Of a stretch of 64,000 nucleotides of DNA, positions 1,778 to 63,400 are shown piece after piece. The notes below the pieces were generated by a model. The model had not been told where the DNA came from. It did no database searches and saw only the letters and a list, made by a program, of their open reading frames with translations. Position numbers and translations under genes: made by a program. The stretch covers positions 487,311-551,310 of the forward strand of contig NZ_KE557274.1 of NCBI RefSeq assembly GCF_000442255.1, written 5' to 3'. The number at the start of each line of letters is the position of its first letter. Positions within the stretch are counted from its first letter, which is position 1. The stretch is from Salipiger mucosus DSM 16094. Its GTDB lineage: Bacteria > Pseudomonadota > Alphaproteobacteria > Rhodobacterales > Rhodobacteraceae.

Positions 1778-2506
1778 TCAGCTGCGAAGTGCCGACTTGA
1801 AAATGCCGAGCCAGGTCTGCGGTTTCAGGCTGACGTAGGGCCCGCCCGGCTCCATCCAGCTGTCGACGATCTTCTCCATCGTGTTCTCGTTCTCGTTGGT
1901 GCGCACACCGAGCGGCAGCATCCTGAAACCGTGCAACATCTCGCCGCGGCGCTCATAGACGTCGTCCGGCATGGCCATCATGATATTCGCGATCTCGACC
2001 AGGTCGGTTGTTCCGAGGCGGGCCTCGGCATGGTCTTCGCGCTCCCGCAAGGCGGCCTGGAGTTTCCCGGCGCCGTCCGAGATGTTCTGGGCTGCACGAA
2101 CCGTATCCGGTTTCACGCTACGGACCTGGGAGGCTGTCTCGGCCCAGCGCTGGGCAACCTGAATGGCACGGACGACGTGATGCAGGGTGGCCTGCGGGAT
2201 CTCCGGAAGCCACACCAGGACCGCTTCCTTGTTGCGGCCGGCCAGGCCGATGTGCTGGCACATGTGGCAATACGAGCAGACGGTCAGAAGGTTCTCCTTG
2301 CGGTTATCGGAGTGGTCGTCGTTGACGTGGTGAACCTCCTGCCATTTCTTGGCCTTGAAGCCGCAGAGCTGACAGGTGCTGTCGTCACGCTCGAGGACCT
2401 TCCGGCGCACGAGACCGAACTCGGCATCTGCATCCTCGGAGCCTTCGTCGTTCATCCGCCAGTTCTTCGCCTTTACCGAGAGTCTGAGTCTGGGATCGCC
2501 GCTCAT
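1778..2506 (-). CDS. icmJ: IcmJ/DotN-like type IVB secretion protein (HNH-fold zinc protein)
   Basis: This encodes 242 residues with an HNH-like zinc cluster: CQLCGF (C45, C48), an HH pair near 59-60 and CSYCHMC (C77, C80, C83). It is followed by LVWLPEIPQATLHHVVRAI. This arrangement is characteristic of IcmJ/DotN, a component of the Dot/Icm coupling complex that recruits substrates to the inner-membrane channel. The zinc site is structural in known members, and nuclease activity is not expected. The ATG at 2504-2506 has AGGTGA just upstream. An AraC-type gene abuts the 5' side, which separates icmJ from the other dot genes at 9116-14124. The usual intervening icmC and icmD genes are not visible. 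Confidence 0.82.
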   Translation of the reverse strand: MSGDPRLRLSVKAKNWRMNDEGSEDADAEFGLVRRKVLERDDSTCQLCGFKAKKWQEVHHVNDDHSDNRKENLLTVCSYCHMCQHIGLAGRNKEAVLVWLPEIPQATLHHVVRAIQVAQRWAETASQVRSVKPDTVRAAQNISDGAGKLQAALREREDHAEARLGTTDLVEIANIMMAMPDDVYERRGEMLHGFRMLPLGVRTNENENTMEKIVDSWMEPGGPYVSLKPQTWLGIFKSALRS

Positions 2507-2572
2507 GCGTCACCTGAGATGTTCCTCGTAACAATCTGTTTTCGGTGAGTTCAGAAGTGGTGAAGGCGAGAG

Positions 2573-3604
2573 TCAGACGAGGGCCGGAATTCGCAACTCA
2601 TCCGAAAAATCACCTTCGGCGTGTACACGGCGGAATTCTGTCGGACTTATCCCCATCGCGTCCCGGAAATCCCGGCTCAAATGCGCACTGTCTGAATAGC
2701 CTGCACAGAAGCCGACAGCCGTCACGCTGAGACTGCCAGTTGCGAGAAGGTGGCATGCCTCCTGTAACCGCACCAGGCGGATGAGACGGGAAACCGGAAA
2801 ACCGCAGGCGCCAAGTCGTCGCTGGAGAGTGCGCCTGGAAAGCTGAACTTCGTCGGCAAGATCCTCCAAGCGCCACCGACGAGAGGGATCCTGAGCTATT
2901 AACGCTGCGACCCGGCGAAGTGTCCTGGCATCCGCGGGTGTTTCCACGTTGGTCGGCAAGACGAGAGGCCGGGGGCTTTCGCCTACGTCTGCTGGCGTGC
3001 CTTGGGTACGTGTCCAGCTCAGGCGCCACAAACCGGTGTCCAACTCAGCCAAAGACCTTGGGAAGGTAAACCGGCCCAAACCGCCGAGGCACCACTCACC
3101 TCCGTCAGAACGACGCATGTAGCAGGTCACTTCGCGACAGCCAATACCGTCAAGAAGTGCGACGACCAGACCGCAGATGAACAAGTTCTCCGCGTCGGAT
3201 GGCATGTCGCCAATCACAGCTGTCCGTCGACAGATTGCAGAGTTCTCCGCGTTTTGCGTTATGGAAAGCCGGTTCCTGGAGTGTGCGAAACGCTCGAAGC
3301 GCGCCCACTTGTCGAAGAGCACGCTTGGCGTGGCCGACCGAAGGGCGGCAGCCCAGATCGGATGGTACGCGATATGATCGAGCATTTCGCACACCTTTGT
3401 CGGCGCGAAGGGTCCTGAGACCTGCACGACGCGCGCAAGCAAGTCACGCTTGGCTTGCGGTTCAATCCGCCCCTCGCGCAGCGGATCAATCCGGCGGTTT
3501 CCTGCCGCGTTGTCGGCCTCTTTCTTCACCCAAGCCTGGATCAGTTCGGCAAGACTCGAGGAAGCGAAATCCTGAACATTGGGTGGTCTCTCGCAACGGG
3601 TCAT
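2573..3604 (-). CDS. AraC-family transcriptional regulator
   Basis: This encodes 343 residues with a C-terminal double helix-turn-helix (about residues 240-335) including LEDLADEVQLSRRTLQRRL and the FCAGYSDSAHLSRDFRDAMGISPTEFRR signature region. The N-terminal two thirds resemble the ligand-sensing domain of the OruR/ArgR-like AraC group. It starts a few bases after the stop of the molybdenum-hydroxylase gene on the same strand, so it is probably the last gene of that operon and may regulate it. The ligand is unknown. Its far end marks the left boundary of the accessory cassette inserted among the dot/icm genes. Confidence 0.85.
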   Translation of the reverse strand: MTRCERPPNVQDFASSSLAELIQAWVKKEADNAAGNRRIDPLREGRIEPQAKRDLLARVVQVSGPFAPTKVCEMLDHIAYHPIWAAALRSATPSVLFDKWARFERFAHSRNRLSITQNAENSAICRRTAVIGDMPSDAENLFICGLVVALLDGIGCREVTCYMRRSDGGEWCLGGLGRFTFPRSLAELDTGLWRLSWTRTQGTPADVGESPRPLVLPTNVETPADARTLRRVAALIAQDPSRRWRLEDLADEVQLSRRTLQRRLGACGFPVSRLIRLVRLQEACHLLATGSLSVTAVGFCAGYSDSAHLSRDFRDAMGISPTEFRRVHAEGDFSDELRIPALV

Positions 3605-8347: not shown

Positions 8348-8965
8348 CTATGCACGTCCGGGTTGCCGGCTGAAGAAAAGGATCAATCCAAAGACGATCA
8401 TGCCAGCGCCAGAAGTGCGTTGAAACCAGTGCAGGCGTGTGTACGCGAACGCGGCCGCGAAATGTCCGGCCGCAGCATATAGGGTGATCGCGCAGGCTTC
8501 GAGCGCGATGAAGATTGCGCCCAAAGTGGCATAGCTTTGCCAATAGGAGGAGGTATCGACGAACTGCGGAAAGAACGCAGCGAAAATCAGGATCGCCTTG
8601 GGGTTGCTGACTGCAATCATCGCCTCGCGCCGCAATGCTTGCCGGATTGTTGGCTTGAGATGGTCTGTCTCGACACCGTCGGGCGCCGGTTTGGTCAATA
8701 TTAGTTTGACGCCCATCCAAATCAGGTAGATTGCGCCAACGATCTTCACCGCGCCGAAAAGAAGTGCCGAGGTCGAGAGCAGGACACCCAAGCCGAGCGC
8801 ACTGGCAGCGATCATCGGAACGAATGCGGCCAAGCGTGCGGTGCTGGCGCTGAGTGCGAAGGCCACGCCATTCTGCGCTCCATGCGTGAGTGCCAGGAGA
8901 TTGTTTGGACCGAATGCCAGGTTCAAGGCAAAGCAAGCAGGTAGGAAAACGAGAAGGTCGGTCAT
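8348..8965 (-). CDS. LysE-family translocator (amino-acid/metabolite exporter)
   Basis: This encodes about 205 residues with the LysE/RhtB fold of about six hydrophobic helices: MTDLLVFLPACFALNLAFGPNNLLALTHGAQNG near the N-terminus, IYLIWMGVKLI, and FQRTSGAGMIVFGLILFF at the C-terminus. The substrate is not predictable; family members export basic or neutral amino acids or homoserine lactones. The start at 8965 is preferred to the upstream in-frame TTG. It converges with the HxlR gene across a 36-bp gap and forms the right edge of the accessory cassette. Confidence 0.88.
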   Translation of the reverse strand: MTDLLVFLPACFALNLAFGPNNLLALTHGAQNGVAFALSASTARLAAFVPMIAASALGLGVLLSTSALLFGAVKIVGAIYLIWMGVKLILTKPAPDGVETDHLKPTIRQALRREAMIAVSNPKAILIFAAFFPQFVDTSSYWQSYATLGAIFIALEACAITLYAAAGHFAAAFAYTRLHWFQRTSGAGMIVFGLILFFSRQPGRA

Positions 8966-9115: not shown

Positions 9116-10741
9116 TCAGGGAAAGATCACGCCCTTGGTGGTGATGACGGCGAAGTTGCCGTCCATCTCCCGGAACTCGCGGATCCGGCCCGCGCCCGGC
9201 ACGTCCTGTCCGACGCCGAACATGGAGACGCCCGTGGGGGTCTCGATCCATGCCAGGTCGTTCGACATCCCGGCCAGGCGGTAGTCGGTGAACATGTGCG
9301 GCCGTGACGGCGGACTGACCCCGCGCCCCTTCGCATTGATGGCGTCCAGTTCCCGCTTCTTGCTGGCCAGCTGGCGGCGCAGACGCGCGGCTTCCGACTT
9401 TGCCTTCTTGATCTCGGCGCCCTCGGATGAGGTATCGTCTTCCTTCGCCGCGGTTTCATCCTCCGGCTCGTCGGATCCCGTCGATGCCGTGACATCGGGA
9501 AGCTGAAGCGTGGGGTCATCAGCCGATGTCCCGCGCGGTCCGGACCCTTCGTCATCCATGACGGCAATCCGCTCCTCGAGATCCTCGAGGCTGGTGCGCT
9601 GTTTCTCCTCCATGGCCTCGAGGCGCTTGGACATTTCCTCCAGGGTCGTACGAAGGACCTGGACCTCACCGGAGCCTGCTGCATCGTTTCCGGACGTGGT
9701 GGTCTTCGCCTTGGAGACTTCCCGGGCAACGATCTCGCCGACAAGCTCACGCGTGTCCTTCTCGGTCAGGAACTCGTCCTCGAACCCGTCCAGGCGCGTG
9801 ATGACATCATCGAGTTTCGCGACGATGGTTCCCGTGTCCGCGTCGGCCGAGGCATTTTCAGGATCGGCCTCCTGTGCCCCGTCTCCCGGGGTCAGGTCCG
9901 GCATGAGGGAGTTGCCCGGCATATCCGTTGAGGCGTCCGTTTTCTCGGGGCGGTCGCCCGTCCCGCCGGGAAGCTGCATCCCCGGGGAGGTGCCACCATC
10001 CGGTCCATCAAGTTCGAGAGACGGTGTTCCGGATCCTGAATTCCCGCCACCCAGGGACGGCCGCTCATCCAGCGAGGGCTCCTGGCCGCCACCGTTGCCG
10101 GCCGGCCCGGAATTGCCCGGCATCGAAGGAAGGCCTTCCGGGCGCTGGGCCCCGGACCCGTTGCCGGTTTCACCCGGAATGCTGACCGGGTTGCGTTCGG
10201 AATCCGGAGAATACCCGCGGGAGACGTTTGCCGGTTGCTCGTAGGTCGCAGGGGTCCTGGGTTCGGGTTGGGCGTTTCCGCCTGTCAGCATGGGAACCAC
10301 GACAAAGAAGCCGACGGACCCTACGGTCAACGCCAGGGCCGAGACAGCGCCCCAGAAGATCATCTTCCCTTTCTTACCGGCGCCATCCGACTCCTCGGAG
10401 AAGGCGTCGTCATCCTCCTCTTCGTCATCATCGTCGTCTTCCATGAATTCCGACAGTGGATCCTCGTCATCCGGATCCTCGTCCTCGAAATCATCCGCGC
10501 CGTCCTCGTCCGCGAAAAAATCAGGATCTTCGCCGGCCTGATCTTCGGCGAAGTCCTCGTCGTCCGGATCGCCGGCCGGTGGGGGCGGCACGTCATCGTC
10601 CTCCTCCTCGTCCTCGAGGTCAGAGAAGAAATCAGGGTCACCTCCGAAGATATCTTCGTCATCATCGTCCGAGCCGCTTCCCGGGAAGCCGCCCTGAGCC
10701 ATGTCTTTGAGCTCTTTTTCAAATTCTTCGTCGTCGGCCAT
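9116..10741 (-). CDS. DotF/IcmG-like (TraP-like) type IVB inner-membrane protein
   Basis: This encodes 541 residues. The first 125 or so are extremely acidic (D/E-rich) and presumably cytoplasmic. One transmembrane helix follows at about 128-150 (KMIFWGAVSALALTVGSVGFFVVVPML). A Pro/Gly/Ser-rich linker, coiled-coil stretches (about 330-400 and 445-475) and a compact C-terminal domain (LAWIETPTGVSMFGVGQDVPGAGRIREF) come next. Topology and position after dotG match IcmG/DotF and TraP of IncI plasmids. Primary sequence similarity is weak, and this protein is about twice the size of Legionella IcmG. GGAG lies 9 nt before the ATG. The acidic tract makes the DNA repetitive at 10400-10720. Confidence 0.65.
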   Translation of the reverse strand: MADDEEFEKELKDMAQGGFPGSGSDDDDEDIFGGDPDFFSDLEDEEEDDDVPPPPAGDPDDEDFAEDQAGEDPDFFADEDGADDFEDEDPDDEDPLSEFMEDDDDDEEEDDDAFSEESDGAGKKGKMIFWGAVSALALTVGSVGFFVVVPMLTGGNAQPEPRTPATYEQPANVSRGYSPDSERNPVSIPGETGNGSGAQRPEGLPSMPGNSGPAGNGGGQEPSLDERPSLGGGNSGSGTPSLELDGPDGGTSPGMQLPGGTGDRPEKTDASTDMPGNSLMPDLTPGDGAQEADPENASADADTGTIVAKLDDVITRLDGFEDEFLTEKDTRELVGEIVAREVSKAKTTTSGNDAAGSGEVQVLRTTLEEMSKRLEAMEEKQRTSLEDLEERIAVMDDEGSGPRGTSADDPTLQLPDVTASTGSDEPEDETAAKEDDTSSEGAEIKKAKSEAARLRRQLASKKRELDAINAKGRGVSPPSRPHMFTDYRLAGMSNDLAWIETPTGVSMFGVGQDVPGAGRIREFREMDGNFAVITTKGVIFP

Positions 10742-10785
10742 GTGCTAACTCCACTATCCTGAAAACCTTGGAAGGCGCGCTTTCG

Positions 10786-12222
10786 TCACTGTAAAAAGAG
10801 GATCCCGAGCGGGGTGCCGGCTTCGACACGCACCGTGGTGGGGCGTCCGCCGAGATACTCGTCGATGATGGCCCCGGTCTCGCTGGCGGCCTCGCCACCG
10901 GCGATCAGAGCGTTCGTGCGCAGGGACCTTTCCGGCGTTTCCGTTTCACTCTGGCCATCCCCGAGCGAGTTCACGGTCTGGCCGGAAGTCGCGATGGCCG
11001 AGCCGAGCCCGGACAGGAAAGCGGTGCTCGCCTTGACCGCGATCCTGGAAACCAGGTGACGGTCGACGCTGGTGGCAATGCCGGTCCCGACGTGTTCGGT
11101 ATCGACCGCCACCGCCCGGATGCCGTAGGTCTTGTTCACCTGCTTGCCGCTCATGGTCTCGTCGACCGAAAGCGTCGTGAACTCCAGCATCAGTTTCTCG
11201 TTGTTCACCGAGAAGTTCCCCAGAACCCTCGCGCCGGCCAGTTCACCCTGCAGGATTTTCGCTACGACGGGCCCCGGGGCATCGCTGTCTGCACGGGTGA
11301 TCATGGACGCGTAGATGATTTCGCCGGGCATCGGCTTCTGAAACGGCGGTTTCTCCTGCTGCGGAGGTCCCTGGTTGGCCATTTCGGCCTGCGGGCTATC
11401 GGTAACGGACGCCCGGGCGCTGGAGCCGCCGGGACCACCTGCTTGCCCACGTTCGCGCAGGATCGCAGGCGGCATGTCACCGCTCTGAGATCCCCGAGCA
11501 CCGGCCGATGCGGTGGCGTTCGCATTGCCAGGCGCCGAAGTGTCGGGCTGGTAGACATACTGCGTCGAGGGGCTGCCAGGCTGGCTATCCATGCGCTGGG
11601 CAATCCGTGACATCTGCTGGGCATAGAGCGACCGGAGATTATCGTCCGTCTTTGGCTGCGGACGTTCGACCAGCTGTGGCTCCGTCTGGTTGGGCCCGGA
11701 CTGCGACGGCCGGTTGCGTGGCTCCATGGAGCGAGGCTCCTGAACGGTATCGCGAGGCCGGATGATGGGACGCGGATCGGCAGCCTCTTCCTCCTCGGGT
11801 GCAACCTCCTGAGGGATGGCCACCGGTTCGATCTCGCCGGATTCCTGGACATCCGGGCGGATGATTTCCGGTTCCGGGTCCTGTTCGACATTCAGGGAGA
11901 CCTGGTCTTCGTCCTGAACGGAGGATCCCATGATGGAGGGCAGGGCGGATCTGCCCTCATCCCTGGCTTGTTCGATCCGCTGCCGGTCGGATTCCCGGAG
12001 TGCCTGCTCGTAGTTGTCGCTGACGTCGCCCTGGATGATATCGTCGCGCTGGTTCGGAGCCGAGCGCAGTCGGCTTTCGTTACCTTCGGCGGCTTCTCCG
12101 CCCCCGAGGAAGAAGACGATTGTGAAAATGACTAGCACGATACCTCCGATGAAAAAGAGAATGCGCTTGGAGCTCTTGTCTCCGGCGATCCTTTGGAATG
12201 CGTTCTTCTTGTCGTCCGCCAT
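10786..12222 (-). CDS. dotG: DotG/IcmE (TraO-like) type IVB core-complex protein
   Basis: This encodes 478 residues. A single N-terminal transmembrane helix (about 19-41, FFIGGIVLVIFTIVFFLGGG) is followed by a long low-complexity Pro/Gln/Glu-rich periplasmic region. The C-terminal TrbI/VirB10-like domain (about 290-478) contains GEIIYASMITRADSDAPGPVVAKILQGELAGARVLGNF. The C-terminus of DotG forms the outer-membrane channel in Dot/Icm machines. It is shorter than Legionella DotG because it lacks the long pentapeptide-like repeat region, as in IncI TraO. It lies 9 bp after dotH, and AGGACC precedes the ATG. Confidence 0.88.
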   Translation of the reverse strand: MADDKKNAFQRIAGDKSSKRILFFIGGIVLVIFTIVFFLGGGEAAEGNESRLRSAPNQRDDIIQGDVSDNYEQALRESDRQRIEQARDEGRSALPSIMGSSVQDEDQVSLNVEQDPEPEIIRPDVQESGEIEPVAIPQEVAPEEEEAADPRPIIRPRDTVQEPRSMEPRNRPSQSGPNQTEPQLVERPQPKTDDNLRSLYAQQMSRIAQRMDSQPGSPSTQYVYQPDTSAPGNANATASAGARGSQSGDMPPAILRERGQAGGPGGSSARASVTDSPQAEMANQGPPQQEKPPFQKPMPGEIIYASMITRADSDAPGPVVAKILQGELAGARVLGNFSVNNEKLMLEFTTLSVDETMSGKQVNKTYGIRAVAVDTEHVGTGIATSVDRHLVSRIAVKASTAFLSGLGSAIATSGQTVNSLGDGQSETETPERSLRTNALIAGGEAASETGAIIDEYLGGRPTTVRVEAGTPLGILFLQ

Positions 12223-12230
12223 TCTGGTCC

Positions 12231-13391
12231 TCAGTTCCTGCGCGCCGAGACGCTGTTCATTTCCCCGTTCTGCGAAATCAGAAGGATCGGGTTTTCCTGG
12301 AGCACGAAGACGCTGACGCCACTGACGTTCGAGCTCTTCGCGACATAGGCCGGGGACAGAACCTCACCGTGGGTTCGGACGTACATCTTGCCCTGGAACA
12401 TCCAGGCCTCGACGCCGGGGTTCGACGTCTGCATCTTCTCGGCGCCGCGCGGCGGCAGTCCGTCCAGGAAGGACATCATCGTCTTGTCCCCGGTGGGGGA
12501 CAGGCCGCGCTCTTCGGTGATGGCGTAGTTCGAGTTTGGCCCCTTGCCGTCGATCCGGACATCGGTTCGGTAATCCACCGTTTCCTCGTCCCGGGCCTCG
12601 AGGGTCAGCAGAACGGGAACCGGGTTGTCCACGAGGGTCACCACCATGTTCGAGGAGGCGTAGTCCTGCTGCGGGTTGACCACCAGGATGTTCGTATCTC
12701 CCTGCTCGCCGGCCGTTTGAGCCGCGAAGGCGCTGGAGTCGCCGGTGGTCACCGACAGGACCGGCCAGGGGTTTCCATTGCGATCCGAAAAGGTGATCGT
12801 CGACACCCGGCCCGGCTGCATGCGGATCACCGGGATGTCCTCGCCTGGCTTGAGGGAAAGGTCCACCGAGCGGCTGGTCCGTGCCGGGTCCTCGCCCACG
12901 CTCTCACGTTCCGCGCGCTGCGTTTGGTCATAGCGCTGTTTGAACAGCCTGATCTGATCCGGGGTCATCGGAACGACGCCTTGCATGGCCTCGATGAATG
13001 CCCGTTGCTGGGGCGACATCCCGGAAAGCGGATCGTCGGCCTGGATCTCGTCGACGGCATTGCTCTTCTCGATGATCTTGAAGATCTCCGACATGGCCTC
13101 GGCTTCCTCCGGGGTCATCTCGGGCAGATCGGACAGCGAGCTTTCCGGAATGTCGCCACGCGCACCTGTGCTTGTCTGCTGCGCGTTGATGGAGACCTGG
13201 CTCTGGGAAGCCCGCCCCTGCGCCCCGGAGGTGTTCCGGATGGAGATCGGATTTTCAGGATTGGCCTGTTCCGAATAGATGACGATATCACCGTCTCCAC
13301 CCCCGGATTGCGCGAACGCGGGATGTGCGGCGGTCGCCAGCGCACAGGCAGCGACCATGGAAAGGAATCTTTGGTTTCGACTGTACTTCAT
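12231..13391 (-). CDS. dotH: DotH/IcmK (TraN-like) type IVB outer-membrane core protein
   Basis: This encodes 386 residues from ATG 13389-13391, chosen because AGAGG lies just upstream and the next residues form a clean signal peptide (MKYSRNQRFLSMVAACALATAAHPAFAQ, cleaved after AFA). An upstream in-frame ATG lacks a ribosome site. The C-terminal DotH domain includes RMQPGRVSTITFSDRNGNPWPV and NILVVNPQQDYASSNMVVTLVDNPVPVLLTLE. It forms the outer-membrane ring with DotG and DotC/D. It overlaps no neighbour and lies 10 bp after dotI. Confidence 0.9.
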   Translation of the reverse strand: MKYSRNQRFLSMVAACALATAAHPAFAQSGGGDGDIVIYSEQANPENPISIRNTSGAQGRASQSQVSINAQQTSTGARGDIPESSLSDLPEMTPEEAEAMSEIFKIIEKSNAVDEIQADDPLSGMSPQQRAFIEAMQGVVPMTPDQIRLFKQRYDQTQRAERESVGEDPARTSRSVDLSLKPGEDIPVIRMQPGRVSTITFSDRNGNPWPVLSVTTGDSSAFAAQTAGEQGDTNILVVNPQQDYASSNMVVTLVDNPVPVLLTLEARDEETVDYRTDVRIDGKGPNSNYAITEERGLSPTGDKTMMSFLDGLPPRGAEKMQTSNPGVEAWMFQGKMYVRTHGEVLSPAYVAKSSNVSGVSVFVLQENPILLISQNGEMNSVSARRN

Positions 13392-14124: not shown

Positions 14125-14288
14125 TCAAATATTCCCTGCGCGACCGCCTTCCGACGACGCCTTCACTGCGGCTGATATTCAGAGAAATTCTTAAAGAGGC
14201 GGAAAATGGGGCTTTCAACCGGCTTTTATCCGGCTGGTGTAAATCCAGATTAAGAACAGAAGATCAGTTCCATTTTCAGGATGCACAT

Positions 14289-14858: not shown

Positions 14859-14912
14859 CACCGCAGGGTCCTGAGAGATCCAAAATTTCAGGATCCTTTG
14901 GTGATCCCAGTG

Positions 14913-18075: not shown

Positions 18076-18747
18076 TCAGGCCAGGCGAGAGACAGAAGCC
18101 GGAAAGGAGCTCTCGGCAACCGGAAGGTCGTCACATGTCAGCCGGGCTCCGGCTTCTCTCGCAGCGCCTTCCCAAAGAGCCCGGTCGAGAGCCGCGTGCA
18201 GTTGCCCGATGGTACCATTGTTGCGCAGAACATGGGTGAACTTGCCGTCCTCCATCGGGGTCTCGCTGGGATGGGCTTCGGTGAAATCGAGCTCGTCATG
18301 GTTGGCGGCCTCGATTTTCAGGAACTGCGCGCGATCCTCGAACATGTAGCGCAGGTAGGCGATCTCGTGATCGTACCGGATATCATCGACCACGACTCTC
18401 TTCCCGTCACCGAGCAGGCGGCCGATCTTTTGACAGGCGATGTCGACCCAAACGTCCGAGTAGATCAGGTCACGGAACTCGTTGCCGAGAATTCTCATGA
18501 TATGCCGGCTGGTGGTTCCGCGGAGGTGGGGAACGGGTTCCAGTTTGTCTTCCTGGGATCCTTCGATCAAACGCCAGACATCATCTTTCGGAACGCCGGC
18601 CTCCTCGAGGAGCAGGGCCGTCATCCGTTTCAAGGTGTCGGCCATCTTCACGCGGACGTACCCTTGGTCGATGAAGAACCCGGCCGCCGTGCTTTTGCCG
18701 GCACCGGCCAGTCCGTTGATCGCGACGATTTCCCCGGTCTCGGTCAT
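18076..18747 (-). CDS. P-loop kinase resembling phage deoxynucleoside monophosphate kinases
   Basis: This encodes 223 residues with an N-terminal Walker A (INGLAGAGKSTAAGFF, about 10-25). RHIMRILGNEFRDLIYSDVWVDIA and RVVVDDIRYDHEIAYLR resemble the nucleotide-binding core of T4 gp1-type dNMP kinases. These phosphorylate dNMPs to dNDPs and are rare outside phages and large plasmids. The ATG overlaps the stop of the DsbC/G-like gene by 4 bp (ATGA), indicating translational coupling. Together with nrdJ in this window it suggests the element encodes its own dNTP supply. Substrate specificity is inferred. Confidence 0.7.
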   Translation of the reverse strand: MTETGEIVAINGLAGAGKSTAAGFFIDQGYVRVKMADTLKRMTALLLEEAGVPKDDVWRLIEGSQEDKLEPVPHLRGTTSRHIMRILGNEFRDLIYSDVWVDIACQKIGRLLGDGKRVVVDDIRYDHEIAYLRYMFEDRAQFLKIEAANHDELDFTEAHPSETPMEDGKFTHVLRNNGTIGQLHAALDRALWEGAAREAGARLTCDDLPVAESSFPASVSRLA

Positions 18748-26121: not shown

Positions 26122-26137
26122 GTTCCCTCCGTCCAAT

Positions 26138-29354: not shown

Positions 29355-29488
29355 CAGTCTATCCTTGTGTGCCGGTATCCAGTGAACTTTCAGGATCGGC
29401 GGCAAGCAACAAGGATAGTCGCTACATAAGAATAGATCCCTATGCAAGTAAAAATCAGGAAGTTTTCATGAACAGTTCGGAGGGGCCG

Positions 29489-42392: not shown

Positions 42393-43955
42393 TCACCTGA
42401 TTTCTTCGATGGCCTTGCCGGTATCCAGGATGACGGGCGTGATCATGATGACCATGACATCGCGCTCGAGGGAGCCGCTGACCCGCCCACCGGTGAGCCA
42501 GTTCTCGGCGCTGCCGACACCCTGCCTGTCGCTGCGCGACGTGGTCTGCTCGAAGCCGCTGAGAACGAGCGTGTTGCCCTGCGGAACCATCACCTGCTGC
42601 GTGAAGCTGCGGTTGTTGATGTTGGGAAGCTGGACCTCGCTGCCGCCGACCGCGAAACGTTCGAAGCCATCTTCGGATCCCACCAGCTCGGAGGTCGAGA
42701 TGTTGTACTGCAACGCGATCTGTCCGTTCGACACCACGCGCGGAAGGACCTGCATGTTGAAACCGGTCTGGACCGAGCTGGTCTCGAAGGTGGTGCTGGT
42801 TTCGTTGGTTTCCTGGTCGGTCTCTTCCGAGATCTCCGACACGTAGCTGCGTTCGTTGCCGACCTGGATCGGAGTTGGCACGTTGTTCAGCGTGGTCGCG
42901 TTGGCAGTCGTGACCACGCTCACGTCGCCTTTTTCCTCGAGCATACGCACGGCACCGGACAGGTTGCCGATGCGCCCGATGGGTTCGAGGATCTGCCATC
43001 CAAGCGAGGACGCGAGATCATTGCTTCCGCCGCTCGACCGGAAATCGAACTCGCCGGACTCCACGTCGGCAAGGGAGAAATCAGTGGCGAGCTCGCCGCT
43101 GTCATCCATGGACACGTTGAAGACCTGGACGCTGACGGCAACCTGCTTGCTCAGACGCTTGTTCTGCTGGGCGATGTAGTCCGCAACCTTGTCATGCACC
43201 GCGTTCGGAGCCGTGATCGACAAGGTGCCCGTTGAACGCGACGCCGTAACCGTTCCGCGCGGCTGGACAATGCCCTGGATGGCCGTGACCAGCTCCTCCC
43301 AGATGTTGATGCTGAAAGTGGAGTTCATGGACTGGCTCGATGACCCCGAAGAGCCCTCGCCACCGCCACCACCGGATCCGCCACCGCCGGAACTCACGCT
43401 CATGTTGCCCGTGCTGCTCGAGGGGAGAAGGCGAACCGCATAGGTCCGGGTCCGGTGGAGAAAGAAATCGATCTCGTCGCCATCGTAGCGCCAGTTGATC
43501 CCGAAATGGTTGCCGACCCGGCCCAGGAACTTGCTCAGCTTCCCTTCGTAGTCCACCGACATTTCTCTCGGGTAGCCAGAACCGCTGTTGCTGACGATGG
43601 ATTCCTCGACACTGACCGGGATACCTGTCGTTTCGTCGAGGAGTGCCGCGATCCCCATGATATCCAGGTCCTGGAACGACACGAGGGTCACGCCCTCGCG
43701 CTCCACGGCGCGGGGCAGGGGTTTGCCATTGCGCAGTTCGCGTGCCTGGCTGCCGAGCCAGATCTTGTCGGAGACTTGCACGTTGGCCGTGTTGCCCTGT
43801 GGCAGGGGCTGCGCAGAAGATACCATCAGGCGCTCGGTTTCCTGCCGGGCATTGTCAGTCACCTTGTCCGCCTCCTGAACGGCCGGCGTCGAACAGGCTG
43901 CGACCGCAAGGAATGTGAGGGCGGAAATGGATTTCAGGATCTGTGCCTTGGTCAT
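42393..43955 (-). CDS. pilN: PilN-like outer-membrane secretin lipoprotein
   Basis: This encodes 520 residues from ATG 43953-43955. A lipoprotein signal with lipobox LAVAACS puts the mature Cys at about residue 20. An N-domain (LVSFQDLDIMGIAALLDETTGIPVSV) and a Gly/Ser-rich linker (about 195-225) come next. The secretin domain includes VVTTANATTLNNVPTPIQVG, GFNMQVLPRVVSNGQIALQYNIS and the closing VPQGNTLVLSGFEQTTSRSDRQGVG. It forms the pilus exit pore. The longer upstream frame only shadows the previous gene. Confidence 0.92.
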   Translation of the reverse strand: MTKAQILKSISALTFLAVAACSTPAVQEADKVTDNARQETERLMVSSAQPLPQGNTANVQVSDKIWLGSQARELRNGKPLPRAVEREGVTLVSFQDLDIMGIAALLDETTGIPVSVEESIVSNSGSGYPREMSVDYEGKLSKFLGRVGNHFGINWRYDGDEIDFFLHRTRTYAVRLLPSSSTGNMSVSSGGGGSGGGGGEGSSGSSSQSMNSTFSINIWEELVTAIQGIVQPRGTVTASRSTGTLSITAPNAVHDKVADYIAQQNKRLSKQVAVSVQVFNVSMDDSGELATDFSLADVESGEFDFRSSGGSNDLASSLGWQILEPIGRIGNLSGAVRMLEEKGDVSVVTTANATTLNNVPTPIQVGNERSYVSEISEETDQETNETSTTFETSSVQTGFNMQVLPRVVSNGQIALQYNISTSELVGSEDGFERFAVGGSEVQLPNINNRSFTQQVMVPQGNTLVLSGFEQTTSRSDRQGVGSAENWLTGGRVSGSLERDVMVIMITPVILDTGKAIEEIR

Positions 43956-45479: not shown

Positions 45480-45539
45480 TCCTGAAAGTAAAAACCCTGA
45501 TTTTGGTTAATCGGGAATATTTTTTCAGAAATCCTGAAA
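45480..45539 (-). promoter_or_regulatory. AT-rich control region with two TTTCAGGAT words
   Basis: Two copies of TTTCAGGAT in the same orientation (minus strand; TCCTGAAA at 45480-45487 and 45532-45539) are 52 bp apart, five helical turns. They lie in the only strongly AT-rich interval of this part, upstream of the pil operon. A TATAAAATT follows the left copy on the minus strand and could serve as a -10 region. No -35 hexamer of good quality was found. Confidence 0.4.
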
Positions 45540-46532: not shown

Positions 46533-47489
46533 CTATTCTTGCGCGTCGACAAGAACGCGTCCCCGGTTCGTTTTCGCGATCAATCCATTCCGGATCAGGA
46601 AGGGCTCGATGGATGTCTCCAGGGTATCCCGACTCTCGGAGAGGGCGATGGACATCGTTTCGATCCCCACCGGTCCGCCGCCAAACATGTCCCGAAGGGC
46701 ATCCAGATAGCGCGTGTCATGTTCATCCAGGCCATCCGGACCAATTCCGAGGCGGTCGAGACAGGCGATGACGAAATCCATGTCGTATTCGACGCCGGCA
46801 TCTTCTCGGAAATCCCGCAGTCGTTTCAGGATCCGGATGGCAATCCGCGGCGTACCGCGTGACCGACGGGCGATTTCTCGGCACTCCTCGTCCCCCGGGA
46901 ACTCCCCCATCTTCCGCGCGGCATTTTTCAGGATCTCCGTCAGCGCCTCGTCATCGTAGTATTCCAATCGTACCGGGATGCCAAACCTGTCCAGGAGTGG
47001 CTGCGAGAGGGATCCCTTGCGGGTTGTGGCGCCAACGAGGGTGAATGGCTGGATCGGGACCTCGATGGGCTCGGGCTGCTGGTAGCCTTCCCCGACGAGG
47101 ATCGTGATCTTGCTGTCCTCCATTGCGGAGTAGAGAACCTCTTCGACGAAAAGCGGCAGGCGGTGGATCTCGTCGACGAAGAGCACGTCGCCACGCTCCA
47201 GGGCGACGAGAAGGGTGGCAATTTCACCGGGCTTCTTGATGGCAGGAGCTGAGACGGATTTGAAACCGGTTCCCATTTCATTCGCGATGATCTGGGACAA
47301 CGTCGTCTTTCCCAACCCGGGTGGACCGTGGAACAGCACGTGGTCGAGCGGATCACCGCGCCGCCGGGCACTGCGGACATAGACGGACAGGTTTTCGAGC
47401 GCATCCGATTGCCCGGTGAAATCTGTAAGCCCGGTCGGTCGGAGGTCGTTCCCCGCGGCCGCCGAATGGTCTCGTACAATATCGTTCAT
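46533..47489 (-). CDS. ruvB: RuvB-like Holliday-junction branch-migration ATPase
   Basis: This encodes 318 residues with the full RuvB pattern: LTDFTGQSDALENLSVYV, HGPPGLGKTTLSQIIANEMG (Walker A), FVDEIHRL (Walker B), TLVGATTRKGSLSQPLLDRFGIPVRLEYY, and the C-terminal wHTH with LDALRDMFGGGPVGIETMSIAL and RNGLIAKTNRGR. Chromosomal ruvB sits with ruvA and ruvC; neither is in the window, so this is an orphan, element-borne copy. It may use the host RuvA or act with the element's own recombination proteins. Confidence 0.93.
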   Translation of the reverse strand: MNDIVRDHSAAAGNDLRPTGLTDFTGQSDALENLSVYVRSARRRGDPLDHVLFHGPPGLGKTTLSQIIANEMGTGFKSVSAPAIKKPGEIATLLVALERGDVLFVDEIHRLPLFVEEVLYSAMEDSKITILVGEGYQQPEPIEVPIQPFTLVGATTRKGSLSQPLLDRFGIPVRLEYYDDEALTEILKNAARKMGEFPGDEECREIARRSRGTPRIAIRILKRLRDFREDAGVEYDMDFVIACLDRLGIGPDGLDEHDTRYLDALRDMFGGGPVGIETMSIALSESRDTLETSIEPFLIRNGLIAKTNRGRVLVDAQE

Positions 47490-51148: not shown

Positions 51149-54100
51149 CTATGACGCTCGACTCCTGCGAAGATGCCTGCGACCTCCAAGCCGATGCGCA
51201 ACCATCAGCATGGACGGCGTCACGATCAGGGTGAGACCGGTCGCAAAGACCAACCCGCCGGCAATCGCGGAACTGAGCTCCGTCCACCACTGCGTTGACG
51301 GTGCGCCATAGACGATCTCCCGGGTGAAGAAATCTATGTTCACGCCGATGACCATCGGAAGGAGCCCAAGGGCGGTCGTGATGGACGTCAGAAGCACGGG
51401 CCTGAGGCGCTGGGCACCGGTTCTCAGGATCGCTTCGCGGGCATCGATGCCATTCTTCCTGAAATCGTTGTAGGTATCGATGAGGACGATGTTGTTGTTC
51501 ACCACGATGCCGGCCAGGGCGATGACCCCGATGCCGCCCATGACAACCCCGAACGGACGCCCGGTGACGATCAGCCCGAGAAGGACGCCGGCCACCGAGA
51601 AGATGATCGCGCTCATCACGATCATGGCCTGCGAAAAGCTGTTGAACTGCGTCACCAGGATGATCGTCATCATGAGAATGGCGGCAGCGAAGGCGGCGAC
51701 AAGGAAGGTCATGGCGTCCTGTTGGTCCTCGGCCTCGCCGCCGAAGGTCCATTCGACCGTGTCCGGAAGATCCATCTCCTCGAGCGCCGACCGCAGGGCG
51801 ATGACCTGGTCATTGACCAGCAGGCCGGGGGCCACGTTGGCCTCGATGGCGATGACGCGCTGTTGATCGATCCGCTCGATGGCGCCGGACCGGGGAATGG
51901 GCCGGAACTCGACGAAGTTCGATACCGGCACCAGGCCGTTGCTTGTCGGGACCCTCAGGCTCTCGAGCTCTTCCAGGGTACGTTCCTCAGAGGGGAACCG
52001 GACCCGGATGTCGACCGATCCGTCGGTGTCGTCAGGACGGTAGTCGGCAACCGTGATGCCCTGGGTCAGCAGCTGAACAGCCTGCCCCAGCAAGGTCACG
52101 TCGGCGCCGAAGCGGGCGGCCTCGGACCGGTCCACGTCGAGCTCCCATTCCACGCCGGGCAGGGGGCGGGTGTCGGTCACGTCCGTGAAGCCACCTATCC
52201 GGTCCATGGCCGCCCGCGCCTCCTCGACGGCGGTCGCCTGCGCGTCCCGGTCATTGGAGATCACCTTCAGGTTCACCGGTTTTCCGCCCGAGGGGCCATT
52301 GGACTGCACCTGTGCCTGAACATCGATGCCGGCGATATCGGACATGTCCTCGCGGATGTCGGCTGCGATCTCCTTCGCCGGCTTGCGGGTGTCCCACTCG
52401 GTCAGCTCGAGCTGGATCGTACCGATCTCTTCCGCATCGGACCGCTGGCTGCCACCGGTGCGGGCATAGACACTGGCCACGTTGCCGTACTCGAGAAGGC
52501 GCTCTTCGACGTCACGGACGAGGTCGTCCTTTTCATGGATCGAGAAATTGTCGCTCGCGCGGACCTGGACCTGTATGAAATCGGGCTCCACCGAGGGAAA
52601 GAAGCTGACCCCGTTTCCGAGTTCCCCATAAGCCAGGAAGGCACCTACCAGAGAGAGCACGGAAAAAATCAGAGTCCGTACAGGGCGCAGGATGGCCCAC
52701 TCCAATGCCCGGACATAGAGGCCGGACAGTCCCGTCATGTTCCTGGGATCGCCTTTCTCCGCCGCGTGGATCTGCCGGGCCTGTGCCGCGGTCTGCGGCT
52801 GCCGGCGGCCGATGATCCCGCCCAGCACGGGAATGAAGATCAGCGCCATCACCAGCGACGCGAAGAGCGTCAGGAGAACCGTAATCGGCAGGAATTTCAT
52901 GAATTCCCCCACAACACCGGACCAGAAGAGCAGGGGGAAGAACACGCTGAGCGTGGTGGCCGTGGACGCGATGATGGGCCAGGCCATCCGCTTGGAGGCC
53001 TTCGAGTAGGCGTCCCTCGGGGTATCTCCTTCCAGAAGATACCGGTCCGCGAGCTCCACCGTGACGATGGCGCCGTCGACCAGCATGCCGACCACGAGGA
53101 TCAGGCTGAACAGGACCACGATGTTCATGGTGAACCCCATGAAATAGAGGGCCGCGACACCGCTTAGGAAAGCGCCCGGGATCGCCATGCCAACGAGGAT
53201 CGATGAGCGCAGACCCAGGGACCAGACGATCACGATCATCACCAGCAGAACGGCCGCGATGACATTGGCCTCGAGATCGCTGAGCATGGTCTTCACCTGC
53301 TCGGACTCGTCCTGCATGTAGGTAACCCGGACACTGTCGGGCCAATCCGCCTGTGACCGGTCGACAACGTCGCGAACGGCGGCCACCGTTTCGATGATGT
53401 TCGCTCCAACGCGTTTCTTGATCTCCAGCGCGAGGGCCGGCTGCCCGTTGATCCGCGCGAAGCCGGTCGGATCCTCGAATGTCCGGCGCACGGTCGCGAT
53501 GTCGCCGACGGTCAGCACTGTGTCCCCGCGCACCTTCACCGGCAGCTCCATGACATCCTGGAGGTCTTCGATCAGCCCGGGCACCTTGAGCACCATCCGG
53601 CCGGCGCCACCATCGATGGCCCTCGCGGCGATGAGGCGGTTGTTCCGGCTGATCTGGTTGATCAGCTCGTCGAAGCTGAGGTTGTAGGTCTCGAAGACCG
53701 TCGGGTCGATCAGGACCTCGAGCAGCTCGTCGCGCGCGCCCCCGATGTCGACCTCGAGCACACCGGAGACGCCCTCCAGGTCATCCTGGAGATCATTCGC
53801 CAGGTCGTTCAGGGTCCTCTCGGGAACAGGCCCGGACAGGATCGCCGTCAGGATGGGAAACAGGGCAGTGTTAATCTCGGTGACCGTGGGATCGTTCGCA
53901 TCCGCCGGCAAATCCGTCTTCGCGGTGTCGACGGCCTCGCGCACCTTGTCGAGCGCCTCGTCGGCATCGAAGCCGGGATCGAACTCGAGCTGCACGCTCG
54001 CATACCCCTCACCGGCGGTGGCCGTCATCTCCTGCAGCCCGGTGATCCCGCTGAGCTCGGTCTCCAACAGCTCTGCCAACAGGCGCTCTGAATCCTCCGG

Positions 54101-54268: not shown

Positions 54269-55293
54269 TGCTGGCCTCCGGTGCCCTGCTCGGATTCTGA
54301 TTTTTCAGGACTCGGGTCCACGATCTCTCCGTCCCGAACGAACCCCTGACCGATGGTGATGATGTCGGCATTTTCAGGAAGTCCGCTGACCCAGACACCA
54401 TCGACCTGCGTCCTCTCGACACTCACGGGGTGGAATACGACCTCGTCGTCAGGGGTGACGGTCTTCACGCCCAGGGTCCCATCTGTACCGAGCGAAAGCA
54501 CAGCCGGGGAGACGAAGTGGGCCTGCAATGTCCCTGTGGGAATGCGCACCTGCGCCGATAGACCGGACGCCAGATCATTTTCAGGATTGGGCACCCGGAT
54601 CTCGGTCTTGAACGTCCGTGTTTCCGGATCGGCGTCGGCGCCCACGAAGACGACCTCGCCGGTGCGCTGTTCCCCGGTGATGAACGCGACCTGCGCGGCC
54701 TGTCCCTCGGAAATCCGTGCCACGGACTGCTGGGGGACCTGGATGGCGATCTCGAGGGGGTCGGTGTCCAGGACCGTGCCGATTTCCGTGCCAGCCTGGA
54801 CGAACTCGCCTTCATCGAGATCGAGGGCATCGAGACGCCCGGCGAAGGGCGCCCGGATGACGGCATTGTCGAGGTTTTCCTCTGCGCGAGCAACCTGGGC
54901 TTCTGCGCTGGCGAGACCGGCGCGGGCATCGGATACGCGGTCGGCCGTTGCCACGCCGCGGTCGAAGAGAGAGCGCGCGTTGTCGAATTCGCGCTGGGCG
55001 CGGTTGAGCTCTTCGCTCGCCTGCTGAAGCGCGGCCTCGAGATCCCGATCCACGAGGCGGGCGATCTCCTGCCCGGCCGCCAGGTCCGCGCCTTTCCGAA
55101 CGGCAACGTGGGCCACGGTTCCCGACGCCTCGGATCGGAGAGCGGTCCGCCTGTCCGGCTGGGCCTGCCCCTCGGCCCTGAAGACTTGAGGCACGGTATC
55201 GGCCGAGCTCGCCCGCACGGCAACGGAGACACCAAGTTTCGTACACAACAAACGCAACAATTCAGAGAATTGAACCGTTAGTCTTACGTACAT
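54265..55293 (-). CDS. RND periplasmic adaptor (MFP), 5'-truncated by an IS
   Basis: Recognisable adaptor sequence begins at about SVAVRASSADTVPQVFRAEGQAQPDRR and includes the lipoyl halves (EASGTVAHVAVRKGADLAAGQEIARL; APFAGRLDALDLDEGEFVQAGTEIG) around a coiled coil and the beta-barrel region. The first 20 or so codons of the frame (MYVRLTVQFSELLRLL) derive from the end of the IS607-type element. The normal N-terminal signal or membrane anchor is missing. The frame even overlaps the 3' end of tnpB. The pump is therefore probably non-functional unless the adaptor is exported by other means. No adaptor 5' end is visible on the far side of the IS. Confidence 0.85.
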   Translation of the reverse strand: MYVRLTVQFSELLRLLCTKLGVSVAVRASSADTVPQVFRAEGQAQPDRRTALRSEASGTVAHVAVRKGADLAAGQEIARLVDRDLEAALQQASEELNRAQREFDNARSLFDRGVATADRVSDARAGLASAEAQVARAEENLDNAVIRAPFAGRLDALDLDEGEFVQAGTEIGTVLDTDPLEIAIQVPQQSVARISEGQAAQVAFITGEQRTGEVVFVGADADPETRTFKTEIRVPNPENDLASGLSAQVRIPTGTLQAHFVSPAVLSLGTDGTLGVKTVTPDDEVVFHPVSVERTQVDGVWVSGLPENADIITIGQGFVRDGEIVDPSPEKSESEQGTGGQQ

Positions 55294-56978: not shown

Positions 56979-57281
56979 CAATTCTACTGGCAGTCTTTTC
57001 TTGGGAGAGATCGCGGATTTTTGGTCGGGAAGGGTGCCGTCAGGCGAAGCAAAATGCAGCCGCAAGGGCAACAAGGCGCAAGCTGCAATGCGCGACTGGA
57101 ACACGTGGCCGGGTAGCAATGTGCAAGTGGCTGGTATTGCCACAGGAGCCCGGGGTTTGCGTTCGTTCGCGCTGTCACGCGGACTAGGTCATAAAGATTG
57201 CTGTCTCGTGCAACCCTTCCCGGACGAAAGCCGGCGTGATCCCGATTTCAGGATCGGTTCCGGCTCCCGTCATCTTGATGT
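56979..57281. other. Gene-free interval beside the IS607 element
   Basis: About 300 bp between the IS607 end and the coiled-coil gene. Short frames exist on both strands but none has a ribosome site or recognisable product. It does not contain the missing start of the RND adaptor. A TTTCAGGATC word occurs at 57246-57255 within a GATCCCGATTTCAGGATCGG dyad, close to the 3' end of the next gene. Confidence 0.5.
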
Positions 57282-60417: not shown

Positions 60418-60441
60418 CGGACCGTGCCTTTCTCTTCCTGC

Positions 60442-63400
60442 TCACGAACAGCCAGTGGTGGACCCGCAAGTGTTGCACTTCATGCAGGTGCCGTTCCGCA
60501 CGAGGGTCATGTTCCCGCATTCACCGCAGGGATCCCCCTCGTAGCCCTTCATCTTGGCCATGGTGCGTTCATCCATGGCCGGAGCGGGGTCGGCTTCCGC
60601 CTCGGCATTGGCCGTTTCGAGAACCTTCTCGACGACGGCCGCCGTTGCCTCGGGAGCCACGGCGCGATCCCGGCTGGCAAAAGCCTCAGGAACGCGCTGT
60701 CGCAGGTATCCGGTCGACGACATCTGGCGGACGGACTGCACGTCCTCTTCCAGCTCCGAGCCTTCTTCGGCATCCTTCGCGACCGAGGCGATGTGATCAC
60801 CTTTCGGCTTGATATGCGCGAGGTCCGTCCTGTCGAGATAGGACACCGCGAGCTCGCGGAAGATGTAGTCGAGCACCGAGGTCGCGTTCTTGATGCTGTC
60901 GTTGCCCTGCACCATGCCGGCGGGCTCGAATTTCGTGAACGTGAAGGCATCCACGAATTCCTCGAGCGGCACCCCGTACTGCAGAGCGACCGAGACCGCG
61001 ATGGCGAAGTTGTTCATCAGGGCCCGGAAGCCTGCACCTTCCTTGTGCATGTCGATGAAGATCTCGCCCAGGCGGCCGTCATCGTACTCGCCCGTGTGCA
61101 GGTAGACCTTCTGACCGTTCAGTACCGCCTTCTGCGTGTAGCCCTTGCGACGGGTCGGCAGCTTGGTGCGTTCGGTCTTCGCGATCACCTTCTCGACGAT
61201 CTTCTCGGCAACGGCCTGCGCCTGTTCGGTCGCGGGCGCCGAGGCCAGCTCGTCCGCCTCGTCGTCATCATCTTCGTCGACCAGGGCGGCAGACAGGGGC
61301 TGGGACAGTTTGGAACCGTCACGGTAGAGCGCGTTCGCCTTCACGCCGCGGGCATGCGACAGGAGGTAGGCATCCAGGCAGTCCTCGATGGTGGCATCCG
61401 AGGTCATGTTGATGGTCTTCGAGATCGCACCGGAGATGAACGACTGCGCGGCCGCCATCATCTCGATGTGCGCCTGGTAGGACAGGCTGCGGGTGCCCTT
61501 CGAGCCGCACGGGTTGGCGCAGTCGAAGATCGGTAGGTGCTCGTCCTTCAGGCCCGGCGCCCCCTCGAGGGTCATGGTCCCGCAGACGTACTCGTTGGCC
61601 GCCTCGATCTCCGCCTTGGAGAACCCGATGCTTTTCAGGATCGAGAAGGCCGGGTCGTTCAGCTGTGCATCCGACAGGCCGAGCACATTGCGGCAGAAGT
61701 CGTCGCCGAGACCGAAACGGTTGAAGACGAACTGGATGTGGAACGCCGAGGCGAGCTTGCTCTCGATATCGCTGATGATCCCGTCCGTGAAGCCGGCCGC
61801 CTTCAGGCTCTCGTGGTTGATCGCCGGGGCGTTCTTCAGCGTGCCGTGACCGACGGCATAGGCGATGATCTCGTCGCTCTGGGCCTGCGTGTAGCCCAGC
61901 TTGCTCAGTGCCGCGGGCACCGACTGGTTGATGATCTTGAAGTAGCCACCGCCGGCCAGCTTCTTGAACTTCACCAGCGCGAAGTCGGGCTCGATGCCGG
62001 TCGTGTCGCAGTCCATCACGAGGCCGATTGTGCCCGTCGGGGCGATCACCGAAACCTGCGCATTGCGAAAACCGTATTCTTGGCCGAACGTCAGGGCTTG
62101 GTTCCAGGCCACGCGGGCCGCCTCGGCGATGTCGTCCTGAGGGCAGCCCGCCGCATCGAGTGCAACAGGGTTCACGTTCACGCCTTCGTACGCGTCCTCC
62201 TTGCCGAAGGCCGCGTTCCTGTGATTGCGAATGACGCGCAGCATGTGCTCGCGGTTGGCCTCGAAGCGACGGAACGGGTCCATAGGCACCGCGAGGGTCG
62301 CCGACATGCGATAGGCCACCCCGGTCATCAGTGCCGTGATGGCGCCGCAGAGCGCGCGACCTTCCTTCGAGTCGTAGCCCAGGCCCATGTTCATCAGCAG
62401 ACCGCCGATGTTGGCGTAGCCGATGCCGAGGGTGCGGAAGTCGTAGGAGCGCTGGGCGATCTCCTTCGAGGGGAACTGGGCCATGGTGACCGAGATCTCG
62501 AGCGTGAGGGTCCAGAGCTCGCAGGAGTGCTCGAAGCCGTCGACGTCGAACCGGCCACCCTGATAGTAGGGCAGGAGGTTGATCGAGGCCAGGTTGCAGG
62601 CCGTGTCATCGAGGAACATGTACTCCGAGCAGGGGTTCGAGCCGCGGATCGGACCGTCCTCGGGGCAGGTGTGCCAGGCGTTGATCGTGTCGTGGTACTG
62701 GATGCCGGGATCGGCCGATGCCCATGCGGCTTCGCCGATCTGTGCCCAGAGATCGCGTGCACGAATTTCCTTGCGGAAGCTCGTGTCCTTGCGCCCCAGA
62801 AGCTCCCAGACATCGTCGTTCGCGACCGCCTTGAGAAAGGCATCGGTGACGCGCACGGAGTTGTTGGAGTTCTGGCCGGACACGGTGTTGTAGGCCTCGG
62901 AGTCCCAGTCGGTATCGAGATCGGGGAACTCGATGCTGGTGAAGCCCTGACGTGCGTACTGCAGAACGCGGTTCACGTAGGTCTCCGGGACATGGGCCCG
63001 CTTGGCCGATTTCACTGCTTTCTTGAGCGCGGGGTTGGCCTTCGGATCGTGGGCCTCGGGGCCCTCCATTTCCGCGATGGCGCCGAAGATCTCGTTAAGC
63101 TTCTCCTGGTGGGTCTTCGAGCCGGCGACGAGGGCGGCCACCTTCTCCTCTTCCTTGACCTTCCAGGAGACGAACTCCTCGACGTCCGGGTGGTCGACAT
63201 CGCAGATGACCATCTTGGCGGCACGGCGCGTGGTGCCGCCCGACTTGATGGCGCCGGCTGCCCGGTCGCCGATTTTCAGGAAGGACATCAGGCCCGACGA
63301 CTTGCCGCCGCCGGACAGGCTTTCGCCCGCGGCACGGATGTCGCTGAAGTTGGTGCCGGTCCCTGAGCCGTACTTGAACAGGCGCGCCTCGCGCTCCCAG

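Follow-up and report, generated by a model that had tools for sequence, protein, structure and literature searches.

The 64-kb window analyzed here (C2:487311-551310, the whole stretch under study, on the 702-kb contig C2 of the Salipiger mucosus DSM 16094 genome, 5.69 Mb in 30 contigs) holds 23 copies of the octamer TTTCAGGA. The explanation that we favor, tentatively, is that this word forms the core of a replicon-associated, predicted protein-binding site, which is kept by selection on the DNA and is scattered both ways along a conjugative megaplasmid's backbone. The word exceeds codon and Markov expectations, is concentrated on contigs C2 and C9 (with C18) and follows an A-tract grammar. 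It shows neither replication polarity nor a preference for gene starts, and one island of 80 kb has almost none of it. Selection at the DNA level would spread the word in both orientations across the backbone, and a putative plasmid-encoded DNA-binding protein would read it and act on the plasmid as a whole, by way of compaction, segregation or self marking. Among the selected words known to be dispersed over whole genomes are Chi, the FtsK-orienting polar sequences (KOPS) and the DNA uptake sequences (DUS). A non-polar word on one large plasmid, distinct from the KOPS of that plasmid, would point to an unrecognized plasmid-wide DNA-binding function. TTTCAGGA fits none of the known classes tested, and no report of it was found in the titles and abstract openings of the papers listed in searches for plasmid-wide over-represented words and alphaproteobacterial Chi words.

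The octamer in the 64-kb window

The original prediction, made from the letters of the window, had listed 23 copies of the word, 17 on one strand and six on the other. All were found again with a single correction of position (51458 to 51457), and a recount gave the same strand split (17 plus, 6 minus; Table 1). The predicted chance level of about two copies agrees with dinucleotide shuffles, which give 1.96 and never reach 23 in 100 trials. An order-3 Markov model gives 4.18; the excess stands against this expectation as well, and TTTCAGGA ranks first among all 8-mers of the window. Many copies extend, as had been noticed: 17 of the 23 to TTTCAGGAT and seven to TTTTCAGGAT.

By our own gene calls exactly seven of the 23 copies are intergenic, where at least seven had been claimed. 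Of the remaining 16, 13 are antisense and three sense. As the genes of the window lie mostly on the minus strand, this accounts for the 17:6 skew. The skew thus tracks gene direction rather than the replication or transfer polarity that had been considered, and the plasmid-wide set of sites is evenly split.

Concentration on the plasmid contigs

The genome contains 301 copies of TTTCAGGA, of which 151 are on C2, 57 on C9 and nine on C18 (in its first 40 kb), three contigs that we infer to be parts of one megaplasmid. The GC content of C2 is about 61% over roughly the first 615 kb and 65-70% in the rest, and the word tests use C2 cut at 615 kb, which drops two of its 151 copies. This first part of C2 carries about 245 copies per Mb, whereas the remaining ~4.7 Mb of the genome hold at most 84, or 18 per Mb. 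Hence, the word is more than ten times denser on its plasmid backbone than in the remaining host genome. The longer form TTTTCAGGAT is distributed in the same manner, with 51 of its 80 copies on C2, 18 on C9, two on C18 and nine in the other ~4.7 Mb. The 149 copies in the first 615 kb of C2 compare with Markov expectations of 31.6, 43.0 and 69.9 for orders 3, 4 and 5, respectively; the order-6 expectation is 111.3, but a model of that order already holds most of the word.

We relied on densities and on codon shuffles because a control with reversed words is crude, as reversed words can contain rare strings. In the codon test, synonymous codons were shuffled among genes with the proteins unchanged (60 shuffles). 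The genes of C2 contain 124 copies of TTTCAGGA against 20.0 by shuffle (60-shuffle maximum 32) and 40 copies of TTTTCAGGAT against 2.5, and those of C9 contain 42 copies of TTTCAGGA against 6.3. When words with at least 10 copies were ranked by the same procedure (12 shuffles), TTTCAGGA was the first 8-mer on both C2 and C9. A test that is free of any codon model gives a similar picture: C2 has 93 copies of TTTCAGGAT, whereas the one-mismatch neighbors of this word average 10.5, a ratio of about 8, and the best words of the chromosome sample reach about 3.7.

The 126 genic copies on C2 fall into several frames, as had been proposed from those of the window (3, 55 and 37 antisense; 14, 2 and 15 sense). 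A by-product of codon or regulatory usage might be suspected, since 121 of them lie in four of the six frames and neither CTG-AAA nor GAT-CCT-GAA is unusual as a string of codons. The codon shuffles refute this as the main cause, and with it the suggestion that codon pairs could explain the enrichment. Moreover, intergenic copies occur at the expected rate, and one of the two nearly empty frames would place TGA in frame; the three copies found there are probably errors of gene calling. We give this explanation practically no weight. The codon shuffles, the concentration on plasmid contigs and the several frames all agree with the earlier proposal of selection at the DNA level.

On C2, 23 of 149 copies are intergenic against 24.1 expected, with no enrichment upstream of genes. 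The location just upstream of gene starts that had been noted in the window is therefore not a preference, and a reading of the word as an operator or ribosome-binding site was rejected. Along the contig the density of the word is uncorrelated with GC (0.03 in 20-kb bins). One stretch of 80 kb (C2:360-440 kb) is nearly empty, with two sites against 30.0 expected. It may be a cargo island too young to have acquired the words, in which case plasmid words would also distinguish backbone from recent cargo.

Motif grammar

With the word as its seed, a position matrix yields ATTTTCAGGATC. It holds little information beyond about 11 positions, without the longer conserved flanks of a dispersed repeat such as a repetitive extragenic palindrome (REP), a miniature inverted-repeat transposable element (MITE) or an insertion sequence (IS). 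The matrix is non-palindromic, unlike the parS, matS and Noc sites. The core of the motif consists of a tract of four A/T bases that contains no TpA step, followed by CAGGA and then mostly by T or A. Before CAGGA a run of A precedes a run of T: AAAT (AAATCAGGA) exceeds its Markov expectation 10.2 times, TTTT (TTTTCAGGA) 10.0 times, AATT (AATTCAGGA) 7.6 times and ATTT (ATTTCAGGA) 6.1 times. Tracts with a TpA step fare differently, as TATT (TATTCAGGA) is enriched only 2.5 times, TAAT (TAATCAGGA) is absent (1.4 expected) and ATAT (ATATCAGGA) occurs twice (4.9 expected). An A/T run free of TpA is the shape of rigid A-tract DNA, and such a grammar suggests a protein that would read both grooves.

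The four enriched forms together make 197 sites on C2 and 81 on C9, or 0.32 per kb on each. On C2 there are 11 clusters of at least three sites within 500 bp. Seven inverted pairs of the form TCCTGA-N2-4-TCAGGA are present on C2, six of them with an A/T center, where about 0.6 are predicted; C9 has none, with about 0.25 expected by chance. Apart from these pairs the cores show no clear favored spacing on the plasmid.

Polarity

The 197 sites of C2 are divided evenly about the GC-skew minimum at C2:261 kb (57/55 and 43/42, p=1.0), and TTTCAGGA alone, split at 255 kb, gives 42/29 and 40/39 (p=0.33). A strand switch along C2 that had been entertained vanished in the full counts. The KOPS word GGGNAGGG, used as a positive control, is strongly polar on the same contig (13/39 and 44/13, p=4.7e-8); polar KOPS are described as typical of large extrachromosomal replicons (PMC13342612). 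As GGGNAGGG is polar and the word sites are not, the plasmid carries ordinary KOPS and TTTCAGGA is something different. The word nonetheless resembles KOPS and the SpoIIIE recognition sequences (SRS), octamers read by FtsK/SpoIIIE gamma domains: it shares an NAGG core with GGGNAGGG, the plasmid is big enough to need KOPS, and the plasmid encodes an orphan gamma domain. However, the word lacks polarity and coexists with polar KOPS words. A KOPS-like directional signal for FtsK is refuted on the part of the replicon seen, and we consider such a role hardly credible.

Alternative explanations

Several results weigh against a site private to the plasmid. In the 460-kb chromosome sample (without L048, L054 and L059, which have a GC of 58-65% and one copy each, and without the C9 and C18 stretches) five copies stand against 2.0 by codon shuffle, the largest of 60 shuffles giving 5, and matrix matches number 26 against 14, about a twofold excess. 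Whole-genome totals for 20 genomes of the genus range from 103 to 305 copies of TTTCAGGA, and one of them, G009, has 305 against 301 here. Another, G001, carries the word at 46 per Mb, roughly double what a Markov model of its sample predicts; the genes of that sample hold 21 copies against 5.6, a 3.8-fold excess that is partly biased, as 6 of the 11 stretches were picked near listed copies. A weak enrichment of the word on the chromosomes of the genus thus exists. An excess is seen among the one-mismatch neighbors of TTTCAGGAT too (333 against 170.6), possibly by decay; about 56 of these 162 excess neighbors, about a third, are two accepted variants, and weak or decaying sites may make up the remainder. 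Genic copies on C2 lean to the antisense strand more than the shuffles do (31 sense, 93 antisense; shuffles give 39:61, p=0.0012). To these points are to be added an excess on a related plasmid (9 against 2.8 in the genes of a 250-kb sample of pRlX5), the use of our own simple gene caller, and a reader that is only a candidate from sequence. The excesses on the chromosome, in the genus and among the neighbors, together with the GC of C2, which is near 61% while most chromosome samples have 67-71%, fit the possibility that the word is a signal or relic of a host lineage in which the plasmid lives or lived and whose chromosome uses it as a Chi, uptake or segregation sequence. We regard this as unlikely. 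ATTTTCAGGATC occurs 41 times in this genome and at most 9 times in any of 384 other Alphaproteobacteria, a sparse sample without genus-mates. The densest genus among 10 genomes has 51-76 copies of TTTTCAGGAT in 3.7-3.9 Mb, or about 13-20 per Mb, whereas C2 has 83 per Mb. Finally, a second word private to the plasmid, GCGCTGGGC, has no halo of one-mismatch neighbors (528 against 549).

A Chi-like signal, which would halt a nuclease of the RecBCD/AddAB type and so protect broken ends of the plasmid, was among the functions first suggested for the word. Like Chi sites, the word is short, non-palindromic and dispersed in genes and between them alike, and helicases resembling UvrD and RecD2, two of each, are encoded on the plasmid. 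However, the RecB-family nuclease domain PF12705 was found twice, both times on contig C3, which is taken as chromosomal from its GC, and not on the plasmid contigs. The AddAB that would read the word serves the chromosome, where the sample shows an excess of only about twofold, and there is no leading-strand bias. A conserved 996-aa protein beside the helicases, tried as RecC-like, proved to be IcmB. The Chi part of the suggestion is thus quite improbable, and a binding site is the best of the functions then listed. A DUS-like tag, which a type IV pilin would recognize, letting cells that carry the plasmid recapture its DNA, is more improbable still. The window does contain a type IVb pilus operon with six tandem pilin-like (Bundlin/PilS) genes at 30061-33534, of which one scores under the cut-off of its family. 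The word resembles the DUS of Neisseriaceae in being part of a dispersed, non-palindromic ~10-mer found in genes and between them and in being the most over-represented word of its replicon, the inverted pairs of C2 are well above prediction, and the reverse complement ATCCTGAAAA contains the CTG core described for DUS dialects (PMC3630211), although this match is weak. On the other hand, ComP, the family of DUS receptors, has a single match, which scores below the cut-off (E 0.066, 14.5 against 27.3 bits), the word sits on plasmid contigs at about sixfold over codon expectation, and C9 lacks inverted pairs. The density of 0.32 sites per kb is also lower than in Neisseria, whose genomes are near 2.2 Mb in size. 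About 1900 of the 10-mers are described per Neisseria genome (PMC3630211).

A candidate reader

If TTTCAGGA is indeed a plasmid-wide protein-binding site, the plasmid offers one candidate for its reader, a post hoc lead and a weaker inference than the binding site itself. The FtsK gamma domain (PF09397) has two matches in the genome, one on contig C1, in what is taken as the host FtsK, and one in an orphan 379-aa protein at C2:133363-134502. We aligned the latter with the FtsK chain 2j5p, which we take to be that of E. coli, and its recognition helix reads ISYARAAAIMEKLI against IGYNRAARIIEQME. The R-E-E spacing places A at R1300 and I at E1306, with E1303 kept, whereas the host domain retains R and both E. 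R1300A and E1303A are described as impairing KOPS reading, and the triple mutant R1300A, E1303A, E1306A as made to be KOPS-blind (PMC2680272). The orphan protein with its rewritten helix might therefore read TTTCAGGA instead of GGGNAGGG at several hundred non-directional sites and so mark the plasmid apart from the host KOPS system, an idea that we consider quite improbable.

Three sites lie 145-470 bp upstream of the orphan gamma gene. This cluster is one of the 11 on C2 and thus weak evidence, and two of its three sites fall inside a predicted 92-aa open reading frame (ORF). Further results speak against the link: the gamma domain was found in none of nine other plasmid records, including that of pRlX5, which has a dispersed word of its own, and four phages that carry a gamma gene have at most two copies of TTTCAGGA each. 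Were the link true, the orphan protein should prefer TTTTCAGGATC among TTTTCAGGATC, TTTACAGGATC, GGGCAGGG and GCGCTGGGC, and the orphan gamma genes of phages would likewise read private words. The role of these phage genes is stated as unknown in PMC8190038, and the plasmid would supply a concrete candidate pair of protein and site for them.

Other words of the plasmid and its relatives

The second private word, GCGCTGGGC, occurs 145 times in the genes of C2 and C9 against 41.8 by codon shuffle, and 14 times in the window against 1.26 by dinucleotide shuffle. In 20-kb bins its density follows that of TTTCAGGA (Spearman 0.78 in 35 bins, 0.71 in the 30 bins with GC <63.5%). It is non-polar on C2. 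On the host chromosome it is polar (31:4, with 21 of 27 samples oriented by KOPS) and below expectation (46 against 67.7); L117-L123, which have no copies of TTTCAGGA, were used only in this KOPS-oriented test. The Rhodobacter phage RcKvothe (L185 and L186, 40 of its 41.4 kb) has 18 copies in genes against about 2 by shuffle. Its 18 copies at 15951-34296 are all on the plus strand and the four at 36739-38690 all on the minus strand, and an orphan FtsK-gamma gene (34995-36320) sits at the switch. GCGCTGGGC is also enriched in 45A6 (10 against 2.8), but not in RcapMu (0 against 1.2), in 50 kb of pRCB133 (0 against 5.8) or in the gamma-bearing phages of other host groups YMC (4 against 2.9) and K478b (0 against 0.4).

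By IcmB the closest named relatives of the plasmid are the megaplasmid of M. extorquens AM1 (55.0%), R. leguminosarum pRlX5 (53.8%), Bosea RAC05 (51.0%) and Bosea ANAM02 (49.7%). These four plasmids carry 13-46 copies of TTTCAGGA per Mb, and codon shuffles of 250-kb samples give 2 against 2.0 for AM1, 8 against 4.7 for RAC05 and 7 against 3.6 for ANAM02. The plasmid pRlX5 has a word of its own, AAGGATTCG, with 421 copies against 8 on another Rhizobium plasmid, pRL12. Like TTTCAGGA, it is replicon-specific, lies on both strands and is enriched inside genes too. However, it is mostly intergenic (51 of 81 copies in the 250-kb sample), whereas TTTCAGGA is evenly spread, and we do not claim that the two are functionally equivalent. 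Private words may be a habit of the Dot/Icm-type megaplasmid group. An idea from 50-kb samples, that TTTCAGGA is one of several megaplasmid word "dialects", is not claimed after larger samples, because the words of AM1, ANAM02, A. persici and pRlX5 are mostly intergenic and because C2 holds an intergenic word of its own, AAGAATAG/AAGGATAG. The RAC05 word CTACAAGG was dropped as a dialect as well, since it resembles a codon effect (19 sense, 1 antisense). The word AAGAATAG/AAGGATAG is present on C2 and C9, with some copies close to TGTTGACA promoter-like boxes; it may serve as an operator throughout the plasmid, and related megaplasmids have AAGGAT-like counterparts.

Replicon setting

C2 up to about 615 kb, on a contig that is not closed, would be a megaplasmid with a Dot/Icm-type conjugation system, to judge from its genes. 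The window contains two backbone markers, one of which was used for finding related megaplasmids, and a plasmid RuvB (Table 1), in addition to genes for a PilN-like protein and a class II ribonucleotide reductase. A Rep3 initiator, IcmB, a DNA polymerase III alpha subunit and GyrB-like and topoisomerase proteins are encoded in other parts of C2. The best DNA matches of window positions 36000-60000 are plasmids of Salipiger, Alloyangia and Sulfitobacter, at 71-77% identity.

Table 1. Copies of the words and other features located in the window (window coordinates)
Feature	Position	Strand	Remark
TTTCAGGA	1921..1928	-	
TTTCAGGA	9856..9863	+	
TTTCAGGA	10757..10764	-	intergenic
TTTCAGGA	13253..13260	+	
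TTTCAGGA	14274..14281	+	intergenic
TTTCAGGA	14886..14893	+	intergenic
TTTCAGGA	18316..18323	+	
TTTCAGGA	21251..21258	+	
TTTCAGGA	23293..23300	+	
TTTCAGGA	26048..26055	-	
TTTCAGGA	29388..29395	+	intergenic
TTTCAGGA	43932..43939	+	
TTTCAGGA	45480..45487	-	intergenic
TTTCAGGA	45532..45539	-	intergenic
TTTCAGGA	46824..46831	+	
TTTCAGGA	46926..46933	+	
TTTCAGGA	51457..51464	-	
TTTCAGGA	54303..54310	+	
TTTCAGGA	54372..54379	+	
TTTCAGGA	54579..54586	+	
TTTCAGGA	57246..57253	+	intergenic
TTTCAGGA	61633..61640	+	
TTTCAGGA	63274..63281	+	
AAATCAGGA	8584..8592	+	variant
AAATCAGGA	10518..10526	+	variant
AAATCAGGA	25920..25928	-	variant
AAATCAGGA	29452..29460	+	variant
AAATCAGGA	36124..36132	-	variant
GCGCTGGGC	777, 2142, 2147, 10142, 11593, 18891, 19371, 23578, 23779, 35123, 48532, 51407, 54991, 62449		
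DotG/IcmE-like conjugation protein	10786..12222	-	megaplasmid backbone marker
strawberry-notch-like helicase	22378..26136	-	backbone marker used for finding related megaplasmids
plasmid RuvB	46533..47489	-	

Some further observations concern the replicon and its genes. Between about 600 and 640 kb of C2 the GC climbs from 61% to 69% and the KOPS orientation reverses, which may reflect a plasmid terminus, an integration junction or a misassembly. The overlapping window ORFs 19787-21388 and 21253-22284 both align to one gene of about 2.5-2.7 kb in the four related plasmids, annotated as DNA topoisomerase 3 in RAC05; the pair may represent a gene that is split or frameshifted, or else a mistake in the assembly. 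An IscB-like gene lies within the pil operon (window 37783-39459), and a TnpB-like gene is found at window 55284-56849. Lastly, CAACGAACGCAAC forms five inverted pairs, 976-1533 bp apart (C2:89101, 350263, 356047 and 455243; C9:163503), four of which have GATACGCGTATC adjoining one end, and these pairs are probably the ends of an insertion sequence.

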